The position numbers were made by a program, and so were the translations under genes. Shown piece by piece: positions 38,473-46,477 of a stretch of 64,000 bases of DNA (its first letter is position 1; each line of letters begins with the position of its first letter). A model generated the notes under the pieces. The model was not told the DNA's origin. It saw only the letters and a program-made list of their open reading frames with translations, and ran no database searches. This DNA comes from Taxawa tesnikishii (nom. ined.) (taxonomy: Eukaryota > Ascomycota > Dothideomycetes > Dothideales), in the NCBI GenBank assembly GCA_030247885.1, contig JAPDRO010000027.1, positions 62,001 through 126,000 on the forward strand, given 5' to 3'.

Positions 38473-41059
38473 ATGGAGGGCGCGGGCGGCTCTCCCAGCG
38501 CGTCCAACGCGCAATCCACCCTTCACCCAACTCCTTTTTGCACGAGCACCATCCGGGCACGCCAGCTCAACCCCAGGAACCCTTCACACACCGGCGCAGT
38601 GCATCCAGTGCCTCGCGTAGGCACATGTCGCAGAGCCCCATGCCGCCGCCTGCCACTACAGCGGGCCCGTCGGCGTCGCCCCGATGCTCTAGTCCGCTCC
38701 TTGCACAGTCAGCACAACCATCCGCTTCTGCTGCACCCGAGCCGCGCCGGGAACTTCCTTCAAAGGACGTTACCGACGACAATATCGACGACATATATGC
38801 CCATTTCATCCTCTACTGCAATCCTCACTTTCCCTCCAATGTGGACACTACCGAGCTGAAGCGCATCTTCAGAAAACCGCCCACGAGTGATGGCAAAGAC
38901 TTCAAAATCTTCACTTTGTGGCAGCTGATCCAGAAGTTTGACAGTAAAGAGATCAAGACATGGACCCAGCTCGCCCTCGATTTAGGCGTCGAGCCTGCAT
39001 CTGCTGAAAAGGGTGGGAGCGTGCAGAAGGTGCAGCAGTATTCCGTTCGGCTCAAGGTAGCGCCCTCCATATCTTCAGTCTGGTCGTGTCACTGAACTGT
39101 ACTTAGCGATGGATGCGTGCCATGCATGTCGATGCCTTCTTCGAGTATCTGTTAGGCAAGAAACACACATACTTCACTGACCTGCCACCACCCAACGACC
39201 CACATCCGGAACAGGGAAGGGATGGAGTTCAGGCAGAGGAGGACTTGGCTATCCGCGCCCTCGACCCTTCATTTAGGCCTAAGAGAGGTCGAAAGAGAAA
39301 CGAATCGCCAGACCCAAACCCGCCACCTCCCAAGAGACCGCTCCTCACCACTGCATTCACGTACGAAGGACAGACGCTATACGCTCAACCTCAGTCTGCG
39401 TATCCGTCTAGCGCGATACCACTGAGTGCTCGGCCGGACTCTTTCGTGGCCGATCCTTGGGCGGCTGCATCTGCCGTCACGCCAGATAGTCTGGCAGCAA
39501 GAAACCTCACACCGCATTCTGCCGTCGCTACAGCCGCACCTCAGCACCTACGTTGGCAGCTGCACGCCAGCACACCACTCACACCGCACCCGCTCTCCGC
39601 ACTCACTCCATCCTACGCACATCCAGATTCGGCATTCGACGAGCCCAGATCAGCAATCACGCCGTCCTCACGCTCCCGTTCAAAGCGCAAACACGGTCCA
39701 GCCGTGTCGTCCGCATGGCCCAGCAGCAACAACGCAAGTGCGAAAGTACGCGGCCGACCACCAGGAAACCGCTCTGTACAAGACGGGCCATTTTCCACCT
39801 TCCCTGCCGACCCGAACGCAGAGAGGACACCATCGAGCCAACGCAGCACGCCATCCGTCTCCCTCGTTCCAGCACCGGAGACGAGAGCACCTCTGCTCCA
39901 TCCCGATACCTACGCCGCCCCCGTGCCCACACACGCACCCACACCTCCAGCTTCAGCAACTCATGCGGGTGTCGCACAGCCAGCGCAGGGGAAACAACGC
40001 CTGCAGCTGCAAGTTCCGGAACACGTTGGTGGACCCGTGCACCTCGTTACGCATCAGACCACACCCACACTGCTTGTCAACGGTCAATCCAACAACCTGA
40101 CCACCAGCAGCAACGACTCAGCCACCTCATCCGCGGGCCCATCGTCTCAAGCGCTTCCTCACTCTACCCAAAAGGTCCACCGGCTCATCGCCCGCAGCTT
40201 GCTGCTCCAACTCCACCTGTACCAGCGCCACAGTCTCGTCCTCACAATCCCTGGCCCGAACAACAACCCCGCCTGTTCCGCCACCCAAGCCCGGACGCCC
40301 CCGACTTTGCCTTTGAAGCTCTACGGCGCGCTCTAGCGGCCGACCTCCTGCGTGGCGAGCTCAGCGATCCAGATGGCGTGCTCACGGTCTCCGACGGCAG
40401 CGGTGGCGTGCTGACGCGGCCTAGACTGACGGGTGACGAGGCGAGAAGGCTTGCTGGGGCCATGGTGGTGAGATTGGGTGTCCCGACTCAGGATACGGAG
40501 AGTAAGAAGGACGATGCGCAGAGGATTGCGGCGGCGAGCTGGTTGGGGGTCAGTGAGCAGTTGGGCTTCTCTGCGGGCAGTAGGATGGGACTGGGAGCCA
40601 TGGTGGTAAGTGTCAGGAGGATGGAAAAGGGCGATCGTTCCGATACGGATGACGACGACGAAGAAGAAGAAGAAGAAGGAGGAGGAGGAGGAGGAGGAGG
40701 AGGAGGAGGAGGAGGAGGAGGAGGAGGGGAGGGGAGAGGACGAAAATGTCGAGACTGGTGCGGGCGTGGAAGAGCACCGAGAGGAGGAAAAATTGGTCTT
40801 CGATGTCGGTTGGAAGATCCGCTTCGGACCTATCGAGGCACAGATGGAGGTCAAAGATCTTGTCATGCCTGCGAAGGCGGAGACCCTGAGATTCCCGGCG
40901 GAAGAAGACGTGGGTAGGATCATCGCGAGTACGAGGGCGGCCGTTGGGGGTGAGGAGGTCGATTGGAAGGCCAAGTTTGGCATGCTAGCAATGGCGAGCT
41001 TGATGATGAGGGGTCAGTTGGAGAGGGTGCAAGAGAGGGTTATTGATGCGTTACTTTGA
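38473..41059 (+). CDS. abp2: ARS-binding protein 2 (Abp2 family)
   Basis: Exons 38473-39056 and 39107-41059 give about 846 residues. The ARS_binding_2 domain runs across the intron from DDIYAHFILYCNPHFP through ELKRIFRKPP, FTLWQLIQKFDSKEIKTW, VQKVQQYSVRLKRWMRAMH and FFEYLLGKKHTYFT. In S. pombe Abp2 binds AT-rich replication origins. A long Pro/Ser/Thr-rich linker follows, with an AT-hook-like VRGRPPGNR. An acidic poly-Glu tract (from about 40660) precedes a C-terminal domain (VFDVGWKIRFGPIEAQMEVK...). The start at 38473 opens the frame that continues after repair. Frame losses occur at 38535-38539 (T run), 40170-40173 (A run) and within the GAA/GGA tract 40660-40735, where two bases are missing or the repeat length is wrong. 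Convergent with lamA, 174 bases apart. Confidence 0.87.
40660..40735 (+). repeat. GAA/GGA triplet tract coding poly-Glu
   Basis: A purine tract that changes from GAA to GGA units. In one frame it gives Glu then Gly; in the frame of the C-terminal domain it gives poly-Glu. The frame needed before the tract and the one needed after it differ. Confidence 0.85.
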
Positions 41060-41233: not shown

Positions 41234-44200
41234 TCACAAGCTCTTCAGCAGCGCAATTCGGCCACCGGCCTTGACCATTTCTCCCGGCTGCACCAACAGC
41301 TTCTCGACCTTGGCCTTCCTCTGGTCTTCAGGAGTCTTGACCGCGATCTCAAGCTTCATGGCCTCGAGGATCGCAATGGTCTGGTCCGGTCCTACTTCCT
41401 TGCCCTCCTCGACCTCGACCTTCCACACGTTCGCATCGACGGGAGCTTCTATGCTCGAGATAGCCGGATCTGGAACCAGGGTCAGCCAACGGCTTTGGAA
41501 TGGTGTCGCACATACCGTTAAGCAAATCTTCAACCGTCGATTCATCGACCTTGTTCTTACTCTTCTCCTCCCTCCACCTGGCCAAACTCTCATTCTCCGC
41601 CTTCGTCATCTCCTCTTGCGCCTTCGCCTGCCTTTCCCTAATACTCTTGACCTCCTCACTCGTCTCCCCAGCAGCCTGTTATGCTCCGACATATCGAACT
41701 CCGCCTCTTCGAACTCGAATTCATACCTTCCACTCCTGAACAGCGCCAGCAACCTATCCAATTCCTCCTCACTCACCTCCTTATACGTCAGTAAATCGAA
41801 GTCTTGGAACAGCCACGGCCTGCTGGCCTTGAAATCATTCTTCCACCCAAGCATATCGAAGCAAGGGACGGTGCGACCGGTCATCTGGTACCCGCCCGGC
41901 GAGTCCACGGGGTAGATGGACATGCAGCTGCCGCCCCAAGAAACCGAGCCCTCGGGTGTGAAAACACGAGAAGGGTTCTGTTTCGGACATGACATACGTT
42001 GGCGCGGATCGACGGGTAGGGATACCGTGTTGCCGCAGAAGAAGCCGACCACAACGGCCATGAAAGTACCGTTGAGGTAGATCTCTTTCAGTTGCTCGGG
42101 CGTGAAGGCGTTGTTACGCGCCACGAAGGAGAGGTTGTCGGGAAGATAGGGCGCGTGCGGGCGTTGCGTTTCCATGTAGCGCTTGGTGGCCGCCTCCTGT
42201 TCTCTACTCTTGAAGGAGATGGGGAGGCGGAAGCGTCGACATGGCACTTTGGTGTTGCTTAGATCGCCTAGTTGTGCTTCGAGGTGTTGCAAGTGCGCAA
42301 CGAGCTTCTCGCGCGAGAGGTAGGCACCGTTGTAGAAGAGTGTGATGGACGTGCAGCACCCGACCGTGTTGATTAGATCGGCCTTGAGGAAGTCAGGTGC
42401 ATCGGGCGCGTGCAGAGCTTTCTCGAGCGCGGTGACCCGGCACCGGTGGTTCAGATCGAACTGTTCGTTGCCGTACTCGACAATCAGGTGGTCGTCGCCG
42501 CCTTGTCGGTACCGCACTTGAGGCTGATTGCCCTGCGCGGCTTGCTCCCAGACGACGGCCTTGCCGAAGTCGCCGGAGGGCTTGTAGTGCGCTTCCAGAG
42601 GCTCGATGTCGTTGAAGTCTCCATCGGTCTGGCATGCCTTGCCAACCGCATCCAGGAACGCGTCGACTTGTTTTCGTAGCAGTAGCGCTTCCTCCAGCGA
42701 CACACGCTTGTATTGCATCGTGTCCCCCGCCTTTATCTGGCCCATCTTCCACCACTCGGCTCGCACGATCGTCGTGCTCGAAACGAAACCGCCAAAGTTT
42801 GGGCAGTCAAGCGGGAAGATACAAGGGTCGTCGCCTGTCCAGTTGAGCGCGCCGAGCGGGTAACCGTATTCCACAAGGTTACTTGGATGCGCGCCACCCT
42901 CGCCGCCGTCCTTGCGAGCCCACTTTGGCACGGGTCCCACCAACCGTATGCCGCTGCGGCTTGCATTGTGCGAAATCTTCCACTCGGTACTGTATATCAT
43001 CTCGATATCCTCTGGAAGAAGGTAACCCTCGTCATGGGGACCTACCATGGCCATGATCTCCCATTTATTTGCGTATACAGGTCTCAGGTTTTCTGGCAAG
43101 CTCAAAGGCTTCGACAGAGCTTCCGGAATGTCATGTGTGATGGCAAGAAGATCGCCCGGCGCAAGTTGACGGCCTTGGTAGCCACCGATGCTGACGAGCG
43201 GCGAGGTACTCTTTGAGCCGAAATAATCCGCCACCGCTGGCAGACCGCCGTAGATTGCAAGATATGACCTGCAGCCTCCTCCCGTGGTCTTTCCTATCTT
43301 GAGCCTTTGCCCTGCCTTGATCGAGCAGCGAGTCCACATCGGAAATGCTTCTCCATCCAATGTGGCCTCCATCGAAGCTCCGGTAAGAGCAACCACGGCG
43401 GGTCCGACGAAGCGCAGTTCGGGACCGCTGAGCGTGATTTCCAGCCCTTCTTTGTTCCGGTGGTTTCCTACAAGCATGTTTGCGATCTGGAAAGCTACAG
43501 GATCCATAGGCCCGGCGTGTGGGATGCCTTTACCCACGGCTGGTCTGCCAGGTAAGTCTTGCACGAGGGTGTAAGCTCCCGCACTTACGACGTCGATGGC
43601 AGAAGGAGAGAAGCGGAATGCTTGCAGGAAGCTTGTCAATGTGTGCCCGGACACGAACGTGTCGTCGGCGATGACTGCGGACAAAAACTCGAGGTTCGTC
43701 GGCGGTCCGCAGATCTGCGATTGTGAGAGAAGCGATCGCATGCCTTCGATTGCCTTCTCACGGGTATCGGCGTGGTACATTGCTTTAGCAATCAAAGGAT
43801 CTAATTTTGTTAGCCGAGAAGTTGTGATTGACTTTCATTATGAGATCCGTACCGTAGTTAGGTGTGATTGTAGAACCTGTGAAAACCCACGTATCTATTC
43901 TGCTCCCGGGCAACTCAGCCCATGCCACTTTCTGCAGCAGTCCAGGCGAAGGCGCGTAATCCCGCAACGGGTTCTCTGCATATATTCTCGCCTCGATCGC
44001 GGATCCCTTAGGCTTCGAGGGCTGCAGTGCTTTGAGATGATCGCGATCCAGACCCCCGTGTCCCGCCAACTGAAGATCGGCCTGCTTCAGCATCAACTCG
44101 ACCAGATCGATATCGTAGCACAACTCGGTGATGCCGTGTTCGACCTGCAAGCGCGTGTTCATTTCGAGGAAGAAGAAGTCGCCGGTCTTGTCGTCGACCA

Positions 44201-45149
44201 GGTACTCGACAGTGCCAGCAGAGCCGTACTTGATCGACTCGGCCAAGCTGACGGCCGCTTTGCCCAGTTTCTCGCGCAGTCCCGGGTGCTTCTCAACGAA
44301 CGGACTCGGACATTCTTCGATGACTTTCTGGTGGCGGCGCTGGATAGAGCATTCCCTCTCACCGAAGTGAATGGCGTCTCCCTTGCCGTTACCGAACACC
44401 TGTACTTCGACGTGATGGCTGGCAGGGTAGTACCTCTCGATGAACAAACCCGGGTTTTTGAACAGCGTCTGTCCTCTTGAGCGCACCGTGTTGAAGCCTC
44501 GCTTGACCTCATCCGGCGTGTTGCAGGTAACCAAGCCCATGCCGCCGCCGCCACCGGTGGCCTTGAGCATGACGGGGTAGCCCAGTCCGTCGGCGGCTTT
44601 GACGGCTTCTTCTTCGCTCTCTACAAGACCTTTGGTACCCGGCACAATGGGTACGCCTGCCTTCTCTGCCAGGTCTCGCGCGACATGCTTGACGCCGAAG
44701 GCCTCTATTGCCTCGGGAGAAGGGCCAACCCAGGCAATGCCAGCGTCGCTCACGAGCCTTGCGAAGTCGGCATTCTCAGACAAGAAGCCGTAGCCTGGAA
44801 CGATGGCGTCGGCACGCTTCTCTTTGCGATGTTGACAATGTTCTCGCCGTCGGTGTAGACGGTTGAGTTATTGCCGGACAGCAGGACCGCCTCGTCGGCG
44901 GCGGAAACGTGTCGAGACGCAGCATCGGCAGCAGAGTAGACGGAAATGGTCTTTATGCCCAGTTGTTTCGCGGTCCGGATGGTTCGCACCTGCAAGGGAC
45001 TGTAGTGTCAGCGCGGGGGCGTGGGGGTCTGTCTGTTTGATCGGAGAAACGTGGAGCCGAGCCAATGGTTAGTTAGCGGGGCGGGGGCAGACCAGGCGTA
45101 CCGCGATCTCTCCTCGATTTGCGATCAAGATGGTCTTCAGCTTCTCCAT
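41234..45149 (-). CDS. lamA: LamA: biotin carboxylase / PxpC-PxpB / biotin-carrier fusion (lactam utilisation, urea-carboxylase-like)
   Basis: Exons 45149-45102, 44989-43853, 43800-41516 and 41469-41234 give about 1235 residues. Domain order: biotin carboxylase (ILIANRGEIA at 7-16, ATP-grasp loop GGGGGMGL, to about 450); AHS2/KipA/PxpC domain (AGAYTLVQDLPGR...HAGPMDPVAFQIAN, about 490-800); AHS1/KipI/PxpB domain (VRYRQGGDDHLIVEYG, about 800-1080); linker; biotinyl domain with AILEAMKLEI carrying the modified Lys. This is the urea carboxylase layout without the allophanate-hydrolase amidase of yeast Dur1,2. The divergent partner is a LamB/YcsF protein, as at the A. nidulans lam locus needed for 2-pyrrolidinone use. 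One missing base each at 44823-44825 (restores NIAKEKRADAIVPGYGFLSEN) and 41666-41669 (restores the linker). The exact reaction is not proven by sequence. Confidence 0.9.
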
Positions 45150-45646
45150 CTTCGCTCTTCCCTACTCTGAGTTCTGTACGGCAGAAGGATGTGACACAGG
45201 ATCAGGCACGCGCAGGAGATTTAAAGACGACTGGGCCGAGTGCTCTTAGCGAGTAGGAGCGATCGATCGGCGCCGCCATGGCCGCACCTGCATCTTCGGC
45301 GAACTGATAACCTCCACCTTTGATGGGGTAATGAGGGGCAGCAGCTCAGAGCTCCATCTCCATCCATATCACGCTATCAAGTCCGTCGATAGGCGCGACG
45401 ACAAGACGGCAACAACGACACGACGCCGAAACCGGTAGGTCCAACCGCCTCAGTTCCCAATCTGTTGCGTAAGATATATTCACCTCCACGTCCTCTTCGC
45501 GCTACTCCACTCCTCCGGCACATCGTTGCTCGCTCTTCTGCCTCTGCTCTACCTCTGTTTCAAAGACCAAAAGAAGAAAGAAAAGAAAGAAAGAAACAAC
45601 ACCTCTTCCGTCCATCCGAAATCGTCATTCTCAATCCCACATAACC
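45150..45646. promoter_or_regulatory. Divergent lamA/lamB promoter
   Basis: About 500 bases shared by both genes. GATA-type sites fit nitrogen control: TGATAA at 45305-45310, CTATC at 45374-45378 and GATAG at 45388-45392. A CCAAT box lies at 45457-45461. In A. nidulans the lam locus is controlled by AmdR together with nitrogen-metabolite control. I did not identify an AmdR site here. Confidence 0.55.
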
Positions 45647-46477
45647 ATGCCCGCCCTCAAGCATCCGGTGAAGATGAACGTCGACCTCGGCGAAGGCTAC
45701 GGAAACTTCAAATGTGGCCCCGACGACGAGTTGATCCCGCTCATCGACCACGCCAACGTTGCCTGCGGTTTCCACGCCGGCGATCCTCTGATCATGTCCG
45801 AGACGGTCAAAGCTTGCAAAGCCCACAACATCAGAGTCGGCGCACACCCGGGCCTGCCAGACATCCAAGGCTTCGGCCGGCGGGAGATGAAGCTAAGTTC
45901 CGAGGAGCTCACCGCGCTCGTTCGCTACCAAGTCGGCGCGCTCAAGGCGTTTCTGGATGCTGAGGGCGTGCCGCTGCACCACGTCAAGCCGCACGGCGTG
46001 CTGTACGGCATGATGTACCGCGATGTCGAAGTGTGCCGGGCAGTGTACGCAGGTGTGCCGCCTGGAACGCCGGTTTTCGGGCTCGCGGGCACCTACCACG
46101 AGCAAGTGGCCAAGGAGCTGGGTTTGCCTTTCGTGGCCGAACTGTACGGGGACGTCAAGTACAACAAGGATAAGACGCTCGTTATCGATCGGAAAAAGAA
46201 GTGAGTTGCCCGTTGTCCCCTCCCGTCCTTTCTCGCTCTCTCGATGGCATACTGATCTTCCCGCTCTAGGCCATGGACGCCCGAGGAGACGCAGAAGCAC
46301 ATCCGCTCTCAAGTCGAGAATTCATCCGTGACAGCCGTGACTGGAGAAGAGATTGAACTGCCCATCGGTGACCACGAGGTCTCGCTGTGCTGTCACTCGG
46401 ACTCGCCGGGCGCGGTTGAAATTGTGAAGGCAGCGAGGCAGATCATAGACGAGTTCAACAAGAAGCATTTTTCTTAG
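45647..46477 (+). CDS. lamB: LamB: LamB/YcsF (PxpA) family protein
   Basis: Exons 45647-46200 and 46270-46477 give 253 residues, the usual length of the family. It opens with the signature MNVDLGEGYGNFKCGPDDEL, then HANVACGFHAGDP, VGAHPGLPDIQGFGRR, HHVKPHGVLYGMM and near the C-terminus SLCCHSDSPGAVEI. These match PxpA (YbgL/YcsF), the subunit that with PxpB and PxpC makes the bacterial ATP-dependent 5-oxoprolinase. PxpB and PxpC homologues are fused inside the divergent lamA product. The His- and Asp-rich motifs suggest a metal-dependent hydrolase-like fold; the catalytic residues are not settled by what I can see. Reading frame intact. The likely substrate is a lactam such as 2-pyrrolidinone or 5-oxoproline. 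Confidence 0.93.

Follow-up and report, generated by a model that had tools for sequence, protein, structure and literature searches.

We analysed a stretch of 64,000 nucleotides from the ascomycete Taxawa tesnikishii (contig JAPDRO010000027.1, positions 62,001 to 126,000; hereafter, the window), which contains a divergent gene pair that, judging by resemblance, would correspond to the lam genes of Aspergillus nidulans. It appears likely that this lamA/lamB pair encodes, in a fused form found in fungi, a lactam-opening enzyme that depends on biotin, in which LamA would N-carboxylate 2-pyrrolidinone and LamB would hydrolyse the product to γ-aminobutyrate (GABA). The observations behind this reading are the domain order of LamA, the retention of a Lys and the absence of an Asp of urea carboxylase (UC), the tree positions of both proteins, the existence of unfused counterparts in prokaryotes, and the GABA genes that neighbour some of these. 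The fungal lam locus is known genetically; what is new here is the proposed chemistry and the family.

Organization of the lam locus

The gene models and domains are as follows (positions in the window).

41234..45149, minus strand: lamA, about 1236 codons in four exons; biotin-dependent carboxylase of the fused type
45102-45149, 43853-44989, 41516-43800 and 41234-41469, minus strand: lamA exons 1 to 4, gene model from sequence
43857..44989, minus strand: major part of the lamA biotin carboxylase (BC); Biotin_carb_N, CPSase_L_D2 and the start of Biotin_carb_C; ATP-grasp
43801..43852, minus strand: lamA intron 2, within the C-terminal domain of BC
42707..43528, minus strand: lamA CT_A_B, homologue of PxpC/KipA and of the transferase half of UC; Asn at the Asn/Asp position (NWTGD)
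41852..42514, minus strand: lamA CT_C_D, PxpB/KipI homologue; Lys aligned with Kluyveromyces lactis K1605; GDVYLG Asp absent
41234..41469, minus strand: last exon of lamA, biotin carrier (BCCP) domain, EAMKLE
45150..45646, no strand: lamA-lamB intergenic region, 497 bp, shared
45647..46477, plus strand: lamB, exons 45647-46200 and 46270-46477, 253 aa; LamB_YcsF/PxpA superfamily, biotin-linked branch

Pfam recognized along lamA, in this order, Biotin_carb_N, CPSase_L_D2, Biotin_carb_C, CT_A_B (E 6e-83), CT_C_D (E 1.6e-29) and Biotin_lipoyl, with the remainder of Biotin_carb_C encoded at the 5' start of exon 3. We take the EAMKLE sequence of LamA to be the biotinylation motif. The plus-strand lamB matched LamB_YcsF (PF03746, E 7.5e-84, 281.6 bits), so that BC, BCCP, the two halves of a carboxyltransferase (CT; CT_A_B plus CT_C_D) and a LamB protein are encoded together at the locus. 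An earlier note on this DNA had described lamA as a fusion of BC, PxpC, PxpB and BCCP; the four domains are indeed in one chain, but the CT half is not that of PxpBC.

The start codons of lamA and lamB are separated by 497 bp, in keeping with the shared promoter of about 500 bases described in that note. This region holds three HGATAR sites, presumably of the AreA type, and one CCAAT; GATA sites are no more numerous here than expected by chance (P = 0.11). A Pfam scan of lamA in four pieces detected no amidase domain, the window and the genome not having been scanned whole for amidases; within that scope, the Dur1,2 amidase is missing, as noted previously, and no linked amidase that would point to ordinary urea use was encountered.

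The lamA/lamB locus of A. nidulans was reportedly described by Katz and Hynes in 1989. We take it to be a divergent pair as well, serving lactam use, with a LamA of about 1241 aa that has the same domains and a LamB of the PxpA family, and we assume that A. nidulans LamA is the protein P38095 (LAMA_EMENI). Architecture and layout agree with those of the window, albeit for a different fungus that was compared by description only.

Unfused counterparts in prokaryotes

Operons of the type lamB-accB-accC-AHS1-AHS2, each adjoined by a LysR gene, were found on plasmids of nine bacterial genera (Aureimonas, Thioclava, Methylobacterium, Rhizobium, Aestuarium, Acidiphilium, Ruegeria, Ensifer and Shinella), bearing out the earlier suggestion that the five functions are clustered in bacteria. 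In the haloarchaea Haladaptatus and Natrinema all the parts lie together, with varied gene order and strand, and in Thermomicrobium they lie together with accC missing at the locus. These operons have the same parts as the lam pair, the same Lys, no GDVYLG Asp and a LamB of the same branch, but they are split into four or five genes, whose annotations read acetyl-CoA carboxylase, allophanate hydrolase or carboxyltransferase, and LamB or PxpA. An initial genome scan that used only LamA had given no match.

Our survey of gene neighbours took in 113 loci, of which 31 were biotin-linked, 49 were biotin-free, 4 were biotin-linked of an Arg type (L183, L214, L216 and L230, set apart), 12 had LamB alone, 1 had accC and no CT, and 16 were of other kinds. 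The comparison was confined to the 31 biotin-linked and the 49 biotin-free loci. The former are not a random sample, 12 having been chosen from plasmid matches and 4 fetched as matches to the AHS1 protein of locus L154; they include L160 and L252 (accB, no accC), counted by hand as biotin-linked, while the biotin-free set includes L272, where the Lys is present and no accC is in view. BioY occurs near 5/31 biotin-linked loci and BioB near 1/31, as compared with 0/49 biotin-free loci (6/31 vs 0/49, Fisher p = 0.002; p = 0.017 without the two loci that were sources of queries). At L252 and L256, on Thermomicrobium and Acidiphilium plasmids, BioY and BioB adjoin the LamB-linked carboxylase genes.

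The carboxyltransferase of LamA

The CT exon of LamA matched the UC of K. lactis (PDB 3va7) with E 3e-133, as opposed to E 3e-33 for Escherichia coli PxpC (5dud), and 3va7 was also the top match of the BC exon; by this similarity, the fold of LamA would already be fixed. Both CT halves remained below the cut-offs of the corresponding oxoprolinase models (147.3 bits vs 500 for PxpC, 49.1 vs 145.55 for PxpB).

In the CT_C_D alignment, LamA has a Lys at the position of K. lactis K1605. The latter is the likely general base of urea amidolyase, whose kcat falls to 0.095 of the wild-type value in the K1605A mutant (PMC5770610). Lys occupies this position in 80/80 bacterial UC-type proteins, in 19/23 biotin-linked LamB operons and in 1/49 biotin-free LamB loci, the rest of which have Arg (47) or a gap (1). 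The lone Lys-bearing locus of this last set, L160, comes from a short contig that carries accB and on which accC was not found. For biotin-linked against biotin-free loci, the difference gave a Fisher p of 1.4e-12, to be read with the caveat that the loci are not independent.

A second diagnostic residue is the Asp of the GDVYLG motif, presumably the urea ligand (D1584 in K. lactis urea amidolyase). K. lactis and 80/80 bacterial UC-type proteins have it, and LamA and every LamB-linked CT that was aligned lack it. At a third position, a specificity site, guanidine carboxylase (GC) has Asp (PMC12186494). We equate this site, tentatively, with the [DN]FTGD column, where LamA has Asn, not the Asp of GC.

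These features bear on the possibility that LamA is simply a urea (or guanidine) carboxylase, with an allophanate hydrolase encoded elsewhere and the divergent lamB unrelated to its function. In its favour, UC is the top NCBIfam model for LamA, the BC-CT_A_B-CT_C_D-BCCP order is that of UC and Dur1,2 (PDB 3va7, 5i8i), the Asn is that of urea-type enzymes, and a 2011 survey employed A. nidulans P38095 as a urea carboxylase query (PMC3073912). LamA also has the general-base Lys in common with UC and Dur1,2, and the best bacterial UCs are 46-51% identical to it in CT_A_B and 35-40% in CT_C_D. However, LamA is set apart from UC and Dur1,2 by the missing Asp and amidase, by a BC+CT branch of its own and by its LamB partner, encoded across a shared promoter. 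With X inserted at both of its frame breaks (see below), it scored 1281.6 bits against TIGR02712, the NCBIfam urea carboxylase model (cut-off 1303.85), as compared with 1971.6 and 1870.2 for two bacterial enzymes that we call urea-type and guanidine-type, respectively, from their gene neighbours.

The genomic context of UC likewise differs. Allophanate hydrolase is encoded at 68/80 of the nearest bacterial UC loci. A bacterial donor with a fused UC beside PxpA was sought among the same loci and found no support: LamB was seen at 0/80 in the fetched flanks, some of which end at contig ends. The T. tesnikishii genome (29.4 Mb in 34 contigs) contains one CT_A_B, one CT_C_D and one LamB_YcsF gene; since there is a single gene for each CT half, no Dur1,2 was found in this search, whereas urease is encoded. 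Overall, we regard the urea carboxylase explanation as unlikely. A second copy of urease alpha was also noticed (C32:27967-28325), with about 51-83% protein identity to the C23 copy over the matched stretches.

Phylogenetic position of LamA

The only fungal rows in our trees were the sequences of the window and K. lactis, so that one LamA row represents the fungal family. In the tree of BC plus CT, built without four rows, LamA was placed outside the UC/Dur1,2 clade (support 100/99), and its grouping with Dur1,2 (p = 0.009) or within the bacterial UCs (p = 0.003) was rejected. The tree of CT alone also placed LamA as sister to UC plus Dur1,2 (100/99), but here approximately unbiased (AU) tests rejected neither LamA with Dur1,2 (p = 0.10) nor LamA with bacterial UCs (p = 0.098); a larger CT set did not reject the grouping with Dur1,2 either (p = 0.072). 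In the BC-alone tree, the position of LamA among the UCs was unresolved, and LamA was flagged as a long branch in the BC and CT trees. As to sampling, the first CT tree was built after dropping bacterial UCs at least 66% identical to one that was kept (80 reduced to 12) and the truncated L180, while the AU-tested CT tree lacked 3 biotin-linked rows and most biotin-free rows.

On these data, it seems improbable that LamA derives from a Dur1,2 by loss of the amidase, a phylogenetic outcome that the earlier note had named as fatal to its proposal; BC plus CT rejects it, while CT alone does not. The LamA CT lies on the carboxyltransferase side of the tree, outside PxpB/PxpC. In the rooted CT tree, made of 49 chosen rows, the successive branches are an alphaproteobacterial/haloarchaeal type, the L154/L209 type, Thermomicrobium, LamA and, last, UC/GC. 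The simplest reading would be that UC and GC lost the link to LamB and acquired the GDVYLG Asp.

Two closer affiliations of LamA were tried and discarded: with the L154/L209-type operons (p = 0.0004 with CT, p = 5e-5 with BC plus CT) and, narrowly, with the Thermomicrobium row (p = 0.048). The L154 CT_C_D protein itself has matches in 21/22 genomes of one alphaproteobacterial order, that of genome G092 (E ≤ 1e-12), and as many as 8 per genome when fragments and distant types are counted; many are 44-62% identical and several are adjacent. At seven such loci (L265-L268, L271, L278 and L279), LamB was not in view in the fetched stretches. These matches look like an expanded, unnamed carboxyltransferase family.

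Our placement differs from that of the 2011 survey, which joins the urea carboxylases of fungi to a broad group of bacterial ones (PMC3073912); the present trees, rooted on LamB-linked carboxylases plus PxpBC, put LamA below the sampled bacterial UCs. The survey reports P38095-like proteins from many, though not from all, of the Pezizomycotina and Basidiomycota, and it places them apart from urea amidolyase; its text contains neither "lactam" nor any word starting with "lam" (PMC3073912).

LamB groups with biotin-linked proteins

PxpA homologues were surveyed in 240 genomes of the class of Pseudogemmobacter and 229 of that of Achromobacter (by inference, alpha- and gammaproteobacteria). We fetched 79 regions around PxpA matches, namely, 56/58 from the alpha set, 21/21 from the gamma set and two from other genomes; the two left out, in genomes G120 and G189, lie at contig ends. 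The alpha set (n = 56) comprised 33 biotin-free loci with CT, 14 biotin-linked, 8 with LamB alone and 1 with accC and no CT, and the gamma set (n = 21) comprised 15, 3 and 3 of the first three kinds, respectively.

In the final tree, which used 62 of 100 LamB rows, the fungal LamB fell in a clade of Lys-type biotin-linked LamBs (39 rows, support 99/95; SH-aLRT 97 in an earlier tree). Eight rows of this clade have LamB with an incomplete CT/accC set in the fetched stretch. Joining the fungal protein to either of two mostly biotin-free PxpA groups was rejected (p = 0.0006 and 0.0009). The biotin-free and Arg-type rows do not themselves form a single clade, so that testing LamB as part of one clade with them says nothing about its position. 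Shared features, namely F102, R182 and a two-residue gap, are common to the fungal LamB and to 20/20 biotin-linked LamBs.

The suggestion that lamB is PxpA therefore holds at the level of the superfamily, while within it the protein groups with the biotin-linked branch. Among the PxpA models, LamB exceeded the cut-off of NF003814 (240.2 vs 226) and fell below those of the other four. Profile searches, which the earlier note had proposed as a check, thus gave a split outcome, with LamB passing PF03746 and NF003814 and LamA missing the PxpC, PxpB and TIGR02712 cut-offs.

The NF003814 match and the presence of homologues of PxpA, PxpB and PxpC are what would recommend another explanation, namely, that the pair acts as a PxpABC-type 5-oxoprolinase, in which the CT half phosphorylates the lactam oxygen, LamB hydrolyses the product and the biotin part is accessory. 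Yet Lys replaces the PxpB Arg, the CT lies on the carboxyltransferase side of the tree and far nearer to UC than to PxpC, both proteins occupy branches separate from PxpABC, and the biotin-dependent domains, BC and BCCP, are well conserved. The genome also encodes a Hydantoinase_B protein, a family that we take to be that of the eukaryotic 5-oxoprolinase. We consider the PxpABC explanation very unlikely, and the claim that the locus carries all the PxpABC parts is not supported by the comparison of CT halves. Because of the nearness of the CT to UC, its UC-type Lys, its tree position and the place of LamB in the biotin-linked branch, the lam pair looks like an N-carboxylase plus ring hydrolase and not like a PxpBC kinase with an added carboxylase.

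Proposed reaction and substrate

For an N-carboxylase working with a ring hydrolase, we infer the following chemical steps, together with the substrate and the partnership of LamA and LamB. The BC of LamA would use ATP and bicarbonate to carboxylate the biotin on its own BCCP. The CT, with the conserved Lys as base, would move the carboxyl group onto the ring nitrogen of a small lactam such as 2-pyrrolidinone, much as urea and guanidine carboxylases act on urea and guanidine. The resulting N-carboxy-lactam would be an activated amide, amenable to hydrolysis by LamB, and the N-carboxy-GABA so formed would shed CO2 to give GABA, whose carbon GABA transaminase and succinate-semialdehyde dehydrogenase (SSADH) could take to succinate. 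Of the earlier idea that carboxylation is coupled to PxpABC-type hydrolysis, the biotin- and ATP-dependent lactam opening is what the data best support.

The ring of 2-pyrrolidinone is about as stable as that of 5-oxoproline, and such stability calls for an input of energy, as ATP, to open it. For 5-oxoproline, the closed form is strongly favoured, with a Keq of about 0.035 (PMC13274462). A route from lactam to GABA also agrees with the regulation in A. nidulans, where AmdR jointly governs amdS, gatA and gabA along with the two lactam genes, lamA and lamB (PMC8016842).

Some prokaryotic operons have GABA genes at hand. In Ruegeria TM1040, GABA transaminase and SSADH genes adjoin the operon; the same holds for L209, where both exceed the NCBIfam cut-offs and are accompanied by genes for a regulator resembling PuuR and for a TorT-type binding protein, and a GabT-like gene is near L270. 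Weaker class-III aminotransferase matches (at most 36% identity) occur near 4/49 biotin-free loci.

The chemistry could be the same and the substrate a different one, such as some other lactam, a cyclic imide or a ring akin to hydantoin. The bacterial operons come with varied transporters, hydantoinase-like genes lie beside 3/31 loci, and few loci have GABA genes nearby, all of which would suit such a substrate; the co-regulation of the A. nidulans lam genes with GABA catabolism (PMC8016842) and the GabT/SSADH genes adjoining two operons point to 2-pyrrolidinone. A different substrate is a possibility that we rate well below 2-pyrrolidinone, yet above the urea carboxylase and PxpABC explanations.

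Several observations weigh against carboxylation of 2-pyrrolidinone by a LamB-linked enzyme. The association with GABA genes is of borderline significance (3/31 vs 0/49, p = 0.055) and weakens when the query source is left out (2/30, p = 0.14). LamA is barely below the urea carboxylase cut-off (1281.6 vs 1303.85 bits), and by that score alone a urea activity would be compatible with its sequence. Trees with the fungal LamB just outside the biotin-linked clade (AU, p = 0.23) or joined to the orphan PxpA of a Thermus (p = 0.21) were not rejected, and the protein lacks three of seven group-specific columns. In the L154/L209-type clade, LamB is in the fetched stretch for just 7/14 rows. Finally, 4/23 biotin-linked operons (L183, L214, L216 and L230) have Arg instead of Lys, and the chain list of PDB 9yx5 sets mycobacterial AccA3 beside an allophanate hydrolase pair of the Arg type.

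This last entry suggests that an Arg-type CT can also accompany a biotin carboxylase. Given the four Arg-type operons and 9yx5, biotin linkage does not need the Lys, which marks the UC side and not every biotin linkage. The CT proteins of the four operons are PxpB-like, and three of the operons have CT_C_D fused to CT_A_B. As for 9yx5, which is known to us from its chain list alone, it resembles LamA in combining a biotin carboxylase/carrier protein with the PxpBC-like allophanate hydrolase subunits 1 and 2 in one entry, and differs in its Arg-type CT and in having no fused chain. As a separate observation, L214, L216 and L230 encode LamB and a fused CT_C_D-CT_A_B protein with an Arg-type CT, alongside a fused BC-BCCP protein (L214 and L216) or an accC match of 573 aa (L230); they make up a separate biotin-linked branch near PxpBC, resembling the mycobacterial pair of 9yx5.

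Integrity of the lamA gene

The lamA reading frame is interrupted twice by single-base offsets, near 44820 and near 41666, neither of which the earlier note had mentioned. These breaks raise the question of whether lamA is a pseudogene in this fungus. However, one-base (-1) offsets with no space for an intron were computed from match coordinates in three other genes, at the following positions of the genome (G000).

C33:191151: acetyl-CoA carboxylase (ACC_central)
C32:28101: second urease copy
C7:156107: GABA transaminase-like gene, for which an additional 5-base offset was computed

Visual inspection suggests that two genes of the window, SMC-hinge (about 28300) and CSE1 (about 1300), also shift frame. 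The assembly seems to contain many small indels, in the form of single-base offsets in conserved genes. Because similar offsets occur elsewhere in the assembly, the lamA breaks are likelier to reflect assembly or sequencing error than a dead gene; the splice sites, the domains and the frame away from both breaks are conserved, and we deem a pseudogene improbable. About 0.5 kb downstream of lamA, there is a GAA/GGA repeat run of some 70-80 bases (window, about 40650-40730).

Implications

Most likely, as far as the sequences tell, the chemistry of the lam pair belongs to a biotin-dependent class that we found described nowhere, rather than to PxpABC or UC. Among the matches listed by our searches of titles and abstract openings in the openly licensed literature, no paper dealt with the biotin-linked LamB operon or with the chemistry of LamA. 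We also lean, with less assurance than for the reaction itself, towards a broader view, in which biotin-dependent N-carboxylation plus LamB would be a third lactam-opening route, hitherto unrecognized, present in bacteria, haloarchaea and fungi and ancestral to UC and GC, with LamA as its surviving fused member; the origin of UC and GC by loss of the LamB partner and gain of the GDVYLG Asp is part of that view.

If all this is true, the names of the whole family would be wrong, both in fungi (urea carboxylase) and in prokaryotes (acetyl-CoA carboxylase, allophanate hydrolase/carboxyltransferase, 5-oxoprolinase). 2-Pyrrolidinone catabolism would gain a plausible enzyme, and the biotin parts of LamA a reason for being there, while urea and guanidine carboxylases would acquire a concrete ancestor.

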